Source of the DNA: Sneathiella sedimenti
GTDB taxonomy: Bacteria > Pseudomonadota > Alphaproteobacteria > Sneathiellales > Sneathiellaceae
Length of the DNA stretch: 64,000 bases
NCBI RefSeq assembly: GCF_017313765.1
Contig: NZ_JAFLNC010000004.1
Coordinates: 1 to 64,000, forward strand
Direction of reading: 5' to 3'
Shown in pieces: positions 18,806-27,945 of this stretch (its first letter is position 1; the number at the start of each line of letters is the position of its first letter). The translations under genes and the position numbers were made by a program. A model generated the notes under the pieces. It ran no database searches, was not told the origin of the DNA, and saw only the letters and a list, made by a program, of their open reading frames with translations.

Positions 18806-18833
18806 TTGACTAATGACTTTGAATCGCTAGATT
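18806..18833 (+). promoter_or_regulatory. Promoter of the leuA leader transcript
   Basis: TTGACT (18806-18811) and TAGATT (18828-18833) are 16 bases apart. The expected transcription start, about 7 bases after the -10 box, falls at or next to the ATG of the leader peptide at 18841, so the leader mRNA may have almost no 5' untranslated region. Confidence 0.6.
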
Positions 18834-18840
18834 TTCACGC

Positions 18841-18894
18841 ATGACAATTTCGAACCGACTATTGAGCCTACGACTTATTGGCCCGGCACTCTGA
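18841..18894 (+). CDS. leuL: Leu-rich leader peptide upstream of leuA (attenuator)
   Basis: A 17-codon open frame (M-T-I-S-N-R-L-L-S-L-R-L-I-G-P-A-L, stop) has five leucine codons (CTA, TTG, CTA, CTT, CTC) and two isoleucine codons. None of the Leu codons is CTG, the common one here. It sits directly after a good promoter and 321 bases before the leuA start. A strong hairpin overlaps its end (18882-18907). This is the architecture of ribosome-mediated attenuation, in which slow decoding of Leu codons changes leader folding. It is too short for automatic gene calling. The role is inferred; the frame and codons are seen directly. Confidence 0.7.
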   Translation: MTISNRLLSLRLIGPAL

Positions 18895-18907
18895 ACTTGG
18901 TGCCGGG
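18882..18907 (+). promoter_or_regulatory. leuA leader hairpin 1 (pause/anti-antiterminator candidate)
   Basis: A perfect 8-bp stem, CCCGGCAC (18882-18889) / GTGCCGGG (18900-18907), encloses the leader-peptide stop codon. A ribosome stalled at the Leu codons or at the stop would prevent it from forming. Confidence 0.55.
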
Positions 18908-19050
18908 GCGAAAGCTGTCCTATTCTCAAATTTGTCGGGTAAACGAATGTATGCAACGAAGACCTCCGGGTCGCCCATCTCTGAAAATTTAAACGGTTTA
19001 CGGCAGGAAGAGTATCTTGGCTCCTCCGGGGGGCTCTCTCGACTTCCTTG

Positions 19051-19084
19051 CGGTCGTACGGGTAGGCGCGGCACCCGGCGACCG
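19051..19084 (+). promoter_or_regulatory. leuA leader hairpin 2
   Basis: A two-part stem, CGGTCG (19051-19056) / CGACCG (19079-19084) and CGGGT / ACCCG inside it, has a 9-base loop. It lies 77 bases before the leuA start. It is the most stable-looking structure in the distal leader but lacks a following T run, so it may be a terminator helper, a rho-related element or a structural element rather than a classic intrinsic terminator. An imperfect hairpin precedes it at about 19006-19047. Confidence 0.45.
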
Positions 19085-19161
19085 TATGCAGGCTGCATTA
19101 AACCGACTATAAAATGAAATTGAGGCGCCCAGCGTCCAAAGCGATACAAGAGGAATTCAAC

Positions 19162-27858: not shown

Positions 27859-27945
27859 GCGGTCGTGGCGGAATTGGTAGACGCGCAGCGTTGAGGTCGC
27901 TGTCCGGTAACACGGGTGGAAGTTCGAGTCTTCTCGACCGCACCA
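27859..27945 (+). tRNA. tRNA-Leu (anticodon GAG)
   Basis: An 87-nucleotide cloverleaf with encoded CCA. The acceptor stem is GCGGTCG / CGACCGC, with discriminator A at 27942 and CCA at 27943-27945. The anticodon stem is CAGCG / CGCTG around loop TTGAGGT, with anticodon GAG at 27893-27895. The long variable arm (CCGG...CGGG) and T loop TTCGAGT are typical of a class II leucine tRNA reading CUC and CUU. Confidence 0.96.

Follow-up and report, generated by a model that had tools for sequence, protein, structure and literature searches.

Among the regulatory leaders described so far, the nearest known system to the one presented here is, on the available part of its description, the LEU element of the Actinobacteria (Seliverstov et al. 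2005, PMC1262725), in which a Leu-codon frame and a pseudoknot lie upstream of leuA, without an obvious terminator. The leuA leader of Sneathiella sedimenti shares this position, a Leu-codon leader frame, a pseudoknot, and the lack of an obvious terminator. The same part of the 2005 paper, in which the mechanism was left unsolved, describes a base stem formed by pairing of the run of Leu codons with the leuA Shine-Dalgarno (SD) box; the RNAalifold consensus of 22 sequences contains no such helix here. The present leader also differs in having two leader frames (the first apparently leaderless) and a CGACTTA repeat, and in belonging to a different phylum.

Two alphaproteobacterial systems are also instructive. 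The trpL attenuator of Sinorhizobium meliloti is leaderless and terminates transcription between trpL and trpE; like the first frame here it encodes an alphaproteobacterial leader peptide with its ATG at the (here predicted) RNA 5' end, but it uses Trp codons and a single leader frame and, in the portions of the two papers at hand, has no CGACTTA (PMC7298713, PMC10117765). The ilv leader of Caulobacter crescentus, a bacterium with many leaderless mRNAs, is likewise an alphaproteobacterial leader frame for branched-chain amino acids, and the accessible text gives it a rho-independent terminator (PMC4117421). Intrinsic terminators, in contrast, are not enriched among the leaders studied here. 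The attenuator of the enteric leu operon, leuL, consists of a single SD-led frame, a Leu peptide with rare CTA codons, and a U-run terminator; to our knowledge it has no pseudoknot. The leader described here resembles leuL in its Leu leader peptide with rare CTA codons, and differs in its second frame, its pseudoknot, and its lack of a U-run terminator.

Our literature search found no description of this leader, although the 2004 survey of proteobacterial attenuators (Vitreschak et al.) may predict part of it; for some leuA genes of the Alphaproteobacteria, a leader with one frame may have been predicted in print before. A survey of alphaproteobacterial motifs (PMC1273637) names an ilvB leader peptide and, in its available portion, not leuA; nor is leuA mentioned in a terminator survey (PMC2965389) or in a paper on reinitiation (PMC4833913). 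If our reading is true, leucine control across a whole class has gone largely unannotated, and it combines serial tandem leader peptides with attenuation that needs no intrinsic terminator. The leader also suggests a parallel to the actinobacterial LEU element.

The window, that is, the whole 64,000-nt stretch of DNA that was analysed, contains a single leuA leader of 321 nt, the length given in a first-pass annotation of the same DNA, and the leader occurs only once in the genome. We consider it likely that this is a two-module, leucine-responsive, ribosome-sensing leader that controls leuA. The leader is conserved, its frames are kept open, its helices covary, and its repeat is found class-wide; that ribosomes stall in it, and that stalling raises leuA expression, is what we infer from these features. 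The first-pass annotation had proposed leucine attenuation through one leader peptide, and comparison supports its account of the first frame as a Leu-rich peptide with leaderless geometry; it had missed the second frame (ORF2), the near-invariant block within it, the pseudoknot, the occurrence of CGACTT in both frames, and the spread of CGACTTA through the class. Neither the leader nor the ORF2 peptide is matched by any model of Rfam, Pfam, or NCBIfam. For comparison we used the 22 of 24 same-genus genomes that contain the region (G008 and G010, from which it is absent, were dropped), as well as the regions upstream of leuA at 87 loci in 49 families beyond the genus; L191 is missing its upstream end. 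It is important to remember that the genus counts are not independent because the species are related. The features are collected in Table 1.

Table 1. Features of the leuA leader and the gene downstream, in window positions; counts refer to the genus sequences, and "cells" to the cells of the genus alignment.
Feature	Position	Strand	Remarks
Promoter TTGACT, 16-nt spacer, TAGATT	18806-18833	+	TTGACTA 34 or 35 nt (first T) before ORF1 ATG in 22/22
ORF1, putative leaderless Leu-rich leader peptide MTISNRLLSLRLIGPAL then stop, 17 codons	18841-18894	+	Conserved in 22/22
First CGACTTA, codons CGA CTT of ORF1	18871-18877	+	In-frame CGACTT in 21/22 ORF1s; class-wide motif
Hairpin P1, 8 bp, CCCGGCAC (18882-18889) with GTGCCGGG (18900-18907), ORF1 stop TGA in loop	18882-18907	+	94.3% of cells paired, mostly invariant
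GTCCT 3' of P1; GTC able to pair with GAC 18872-18874 in ORF1	18917-18921	+	21/22; 98.5% of cells paired
GTCGGG, the SD-like purines ahead of ORF2; 3' side of stem A, partner CCGAC (18855-18859)	18934-18939	+	
ORF2, second leader frame, 56 aa here	18947-19117	+	Open in 22/22
Hairpin P2, GACC/GGTC	18961-18972	+	96.6% of cells paired; two-sided changes AU to GC
Hairpin P3, GGAAGA/TCCTCC	19006-19027	+	89.4% of cells paired; two-sided changes at three pairs
Near-invariant block CGGGGGGCTCTCTCGACTT; ORF2 codons ...CTC TCT CGA CTT	19027-19045	+	GGGNGGCTCTCTCGACTT in 22/22; CGGG too in 21
Hairpin P4, CGGTCG/CGACCG	19051-19084	+	91.9% of cells paired; two-sided changes at three pairs
Pseudoknot, loop strand GCGGC (19068-19072) with GCTGC (19092-19096)	19068-19096	+	92.7% of cells paired
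Hairpin P5, 5' of leuA ribosome-binding site	19124-19136	+	Consensus fold; hairpin kept, sequence not
leuA SD, GAGGA	19150-19154	+	SD-like 4-mer before leuA in 22/22
leuA, 2-isopropylmalate synthase, 557 aa	19162-20835	+	NF002991 and TIGR00970 above cut-off; HMGL-like, IPMS_D2, LeuA_dimer

In the first module, the promoter-like sequence lies where the first-pass annotation had placed it; the pattern is weak by itself, with one match against a shuffle mean of 0.6. The ATG of ORF1 follows the -10 hexamer at about 8 nt throughout the 22 genus sequences, and an SD-like 4-mer precedes ORF1 in none of them, as against all 22 for leuA. This promoter geometry and the missing SD fit the earlier proposal of a leaderless peptide, with the ATG at the likely first base of the mRNA. 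ORF1 contains the five Leu codons previously listed for it (CTA, TTG, CTA, CTT, and CTC) together with two Ile codons, and when leaders were shuffled, no more than 3 of the 226 short ORFs that arose had as high a Leu fraction. Two of the checks set beforehand, on the start position and on conservation of the Leu codons in relatives, could be made in part, and both held: the promoter-to-ATG distance is fixed, every genus sequence has 4-6 Leu codons in ORF1, the final sense codon is Leu in 21 of 22, and CTA supplies 45 of the 114 Leu codons, compared with 41 of 1537 (2.7%) in 51 long ORFs of the window. Pairwise differences by codon position (115/99/215 in 11 sequences and 218/162/300 in 10, the one 60-nt ORF1 being omitted) favour position 3, which fits a translated peptide. 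The ORF1 of L015 carries CGACTA in place of CGACTT.

The second module is built around ORF2; for its start we used, in each species, the most distant ATG in frame over a span of 125 nt. So defined, the start lies 49-54 nt 3' of the ORF1 stop in the 22 sequences, and a purine SD-like 3-mer is found 5' of the ATG in all of them, versus 6 of 22 for ORF1. Over the ORF2 stretch there are no stops in the ORF2 frame compared with 31 and 42 in the other two (22 sequences), and the distance from the ATG to the CTC of CTCTCTCGACTT is 87, 96, 99, or 102 nt, every value being divisible by 3; shuffling leaves a frame open in an average of 27% of cases per sequence, and the open-frame counts are not independent since the species are related. 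Substitutions are flat with respect to codon position (413/401/419 pairwise differences in 11 sequences, the 11 of differing length being omitted), so that the frame is kept and the peptide hardly at all. The exception is the block GGGNGGCTCTCTCGACTT, which is constant in 22 of 22 even at synonymous sites, and a search of 289 class genomes gave no exact match to the near-invariant block beyond the genus. CGACTT is present in both frames: CGA-CTT of ORF1 sits 5 nt 5' of P1, and CTC TCT CGA CTT of ORF2 sits 4-5 nt 5' of P4. A Leu codon pair placed 4-5 nt before a hairpin, often with a stop in its loop, and this twice in succession, would suit a device for telling a stalled ribosome from a finished one.

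Both hairpins reported in the first-pass annotation, P1 over the ORF1 stop and P4 farther downstream, are found at the positions it gave. P1 is nearly invariant and because of this is neither proved nor disproved by covariation. The evidence for a conserved fold comes from P2, P3, P4, and the pseudoknot, which together are paired in 92.2% of cells and show 25 two-sided changes against 9.1 in shuffles (0/500), with far lower values for slid controls. Stem A, in which codons 6-7 of ORF1 pair with the SD region of ORF2, is paired in 85.3% of cells, with 7 two-sided cells versus 2.4 shuffled. Three further candidates showed no covariation in the genus alignment: the GTC/GAC pairing between the sequence 3' of P1 and ORF1 (no two-sided changes), the helix P0 joining the ORF2 SD to the near-invariant block (zero two-sided changes), and the T hairpin within the block, which is fully paired. 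The alternative fold suggested earlier, GTAAAC (18939-18944) with GTTTAC (18996-19001), was rejected; both strings exist, but inspection of the alignment by eye shows that the pair is lost in genus relatives (e.g., L004 and L007).

All five pseudoknot pairs can form in 19 of the 22 genus sequences, the others being L016, L020, and L155. A simpler pseudoknot search evaluated by species permutation gave 1/200 for 15 Rhizobiales, 26/200 for 44 class leaders, and 107/200 for the genus, and support for the pseudoknot is therefore limited to the genus alignment and the Rhizobiales. A stop codon lies within the loop of the second hairpin in 14 of 22 genus and 30 of 44 class leaders; the ORF2 stop falls outside the P4 loop in the window species and seven others of the genus.

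Many alphaproteobacterial relatives share the leuA leader design, as judged from their sequences. CGACTTA occurs 82 times in the 87 class leaders, compared with 2.14 times in shuffles (maximum 7) and once on the reverse strand. Of these leaders, 55 carry one copy or more, 26 carry two or more, and 32 carry none; by family, the motif is present in 31 of 49, and in duplicate in 18. Of the 82 occurrences, 78 are read as CGA CTT by an open frame beginning with ATG, the other frames accounting for 4 and 3. The copies are 129-214 nt apart (median 162.5) in two-copy class leaders and 167-183 nt apart in the genus. TTGAC lies 34-40 nt 5' of an in-frame ATG for 35 of 37 first-copy ORFs versus at most 6 of 41 second-copy ORFs, some of the second-copy frames belonging to single-frame leaders. 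This count is a cleaner test than our best-pick promoter table (65/87), which is biased by its own selection. When the motif followed by a CCCGGC hairpin was searched genome-wide, 11 of 289 class genomes matched, 9 of them at leuA. Searched against other families, covariance model R1 matched weakly, with a top score of 26 bits, and some of its matches are probably due to chance. A genome-wide search for the leaderless pattern matched 80 of 289 genomes, and many also matched a reversed-pattern control; it was not used as evidence. Several of the 32 leaders without CGACTTA keep Leu-rich leaderless frames encoding peptides of the MTIIDRPNALLRLASPAL type, followed by a stop. Examples without the motif are L193, L194, L231, L232, and L236, where such frames (LLGLLLGA or ALLRLLGPTS, then stop) have TTGAC 35-36 nt upstream.

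The Rhizobiales form a distinct case. CGACTTA is absent from their 21 named leuA loci, and in each of the 21 leaders a frame closes with a peptide end resembling LLLLGLIRGCRVR or LTLGLSGDRRAR, then a stop. The loop search used 15 of these loci (six did not fit the pattern), and in all 15 the frame is followed by a hairpin whose loop contains the stop. Pairing is possible between a GAGGAGC in this hairpin and a GCUCCUC farther downstream; in L073 and L100 an A-U pair replaces G-C. A pair count on all 21 leaders gave 2 two-sided cells versus 0.6 (37/500), a weak result, partly because MAFFT split one pair. We read the Rhizobiales leaders as candidates for the second module alone, complete with its pseudoknot. 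The strand GCUCCUC (in L052, L063, L072, and 18 others) resembles an anti-SD sequence and could, for that reason, act on the leuA ribosome-binding site.

We regard the leader as authentic and its input as ordinary; what is unusual is that it is doubled, putatively leaderless, and terminator-less, with a codon pair kept base-exact over many families. The input is probably leucine shortage, sensed by way of stalled ribosomes. Judging from the promoter geometry, transcription would start with the A of 18841 or a base adjoining it, and a 70S ribosome could begin ORF1 at once. It would meet rare Leu codons (CTA) and the CGA-CTT pair and then P1 with the stop in its loop; the SD-like sequence of ORF2 may pair back onto ORF1 as stem A. 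In ORF2 the layout is repeated, with CTC TCT CGA CTT followed by P4 and its pseudoknot. When leucyl-tRNA is scarce, ribosomes would wait at the Leu codons and so cover P1 or P4 on its 5' arm; with ample leucyl-tRNA, they would reach the stop and depart, and the hairpins could form. Stalling should, on this reasoning, lead to higher leuA expression.

How this would be passed on to leuA is a matter on which we lean only weakly. Our tentative preference is for Rho-dependent termination in the stretch between ORF2 and leuA when ORF2 is unoccupied. The excess of C over G that Rho would lead one to expect is present in 20 and 24 of the 26 class leaders with two copies and in 1 and 5 of the 22 genus leaders; composition favours Rho in the high-GC relatives, not in the genus. 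Control of translation or of mRNA stability is a somewhat less probable output, and the remainder falls to something else. Folding with a masked ribosome gave no clear switch, the mean accessibility of the ORF2 SD being 0.31 free and 0.37 stalled, and that of the leuA SD 0.47 and 0.42. We also rejected the idea that a sequence complementary to CGACTTA competes for it from the stretch that separates the copies: in 52 leaders p averaged 0.52, with 8 of them at p <= 0.05, and such a complement exists in single species (L029, L203, and L219) but not generally. A more specific proposal, which we hold to be speculative and rather doubtful, is that CGACUU(A) is a dedicated arrest signal, in which CGA in the P site and CUU in the A site make the ribosome hypersensitive to charged tRNA-Leu(GAG), the two serial copies, one leaderless and one SD-led, acting as a double checkpoint through the pseudoknot rather than a terminator. 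Stalling at the codon pair is directly testable, given that it is base-exact over many families.

Other explanations must be weighed against ribosome sensing without an intrinsic terminator. A hairpin overlapping the stop of a Leu leader peptide is what classical attenuation would provide, and P1 or P4 might terminate without a good U-run; in a few class members (e.g., L026, L226, and L236) such a hairpin is indeed followed by U-rich sequence. However, the earlier remark that the leader lacks a T-run terminator is borne out: it contains no U-run terminator, 44 terminator-like sites were counted in 109 leaders versus 47.6 in shuffles, and the 22 genus leaders have a single, weak site. Moreover, P1 would be opened by a stalled ribosome, the wrong sense for a terminator, and we consider a missed terminator quite unlikely.

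The frames could instead be secondary to an RNA structure to which a protein or ligand binds, the proposal made for the actinobacterial LEU element. Codon reading alone would hardly need GGGNGGCTCTCTCGACTT to be constant at synonymous sites, and the pseudoknot, the junction helices, and a CGACTTA that is base-exact in 31 of 49 families all suit a binding site. A pure binding site needs no frame, though, and here ORF2 stays open with only threefold length changes, substitutions in ORF1 are enriched at codon position 3, and 78 of 82 class motifs lie in a translated frame; binding as the main role is unlikely. The extreme conservation of the block might also be expected if the leader mainly yielded a small RNA or peptide acting in trans, with control of leuA in cis being minor, and leaderless attenuator RNAs with trans roles (rnTrpL/peTrpL) are known from the available part of PMC7298713. 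The ORF2 peptide is mostly unconstrained and 9 of 11 genome-wide module matches are at leuA, which makes this very unlikely.

Some minor observations should be recorded. Among the 58 other (non-Rhizobiales) named loci, CGACTTA occurs in three (L034, L088, and L105); in L034, a SAR86 cluster MAG on a contig labelled gammaproteobacterial, CGACTTACTTACCCGG lies 129 nt 5' of a leuA-like gene. In family f30, three loci (L320, L321, and L322, from G053, G183, and G353) have hairpins of the CCCGGCC type and a leaderless frame that contains CGACTTAC before a protein of ~95 aa, and in the first two there is a near-repeat of the motif as CGAGTTAC. The small protein gave an ACT_4 match below the curated cut-off in one of two tested, and this family may have co-opted the leader module to serve a different gene. 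As for the decoding tRNAs, the genome has one tRNA-Leu(GAG) gene for CTT/CTC, one TAG gene for CTA, and one tRNA-Arg(ACG) gene for CGA, the last codon being read only by this I34-type tRNA. The sole tRNA-Leu(GAG) gene, which the first-pass annotation had noticed in the window, lies at 27859-27945, ~8.7 kb from leuA.
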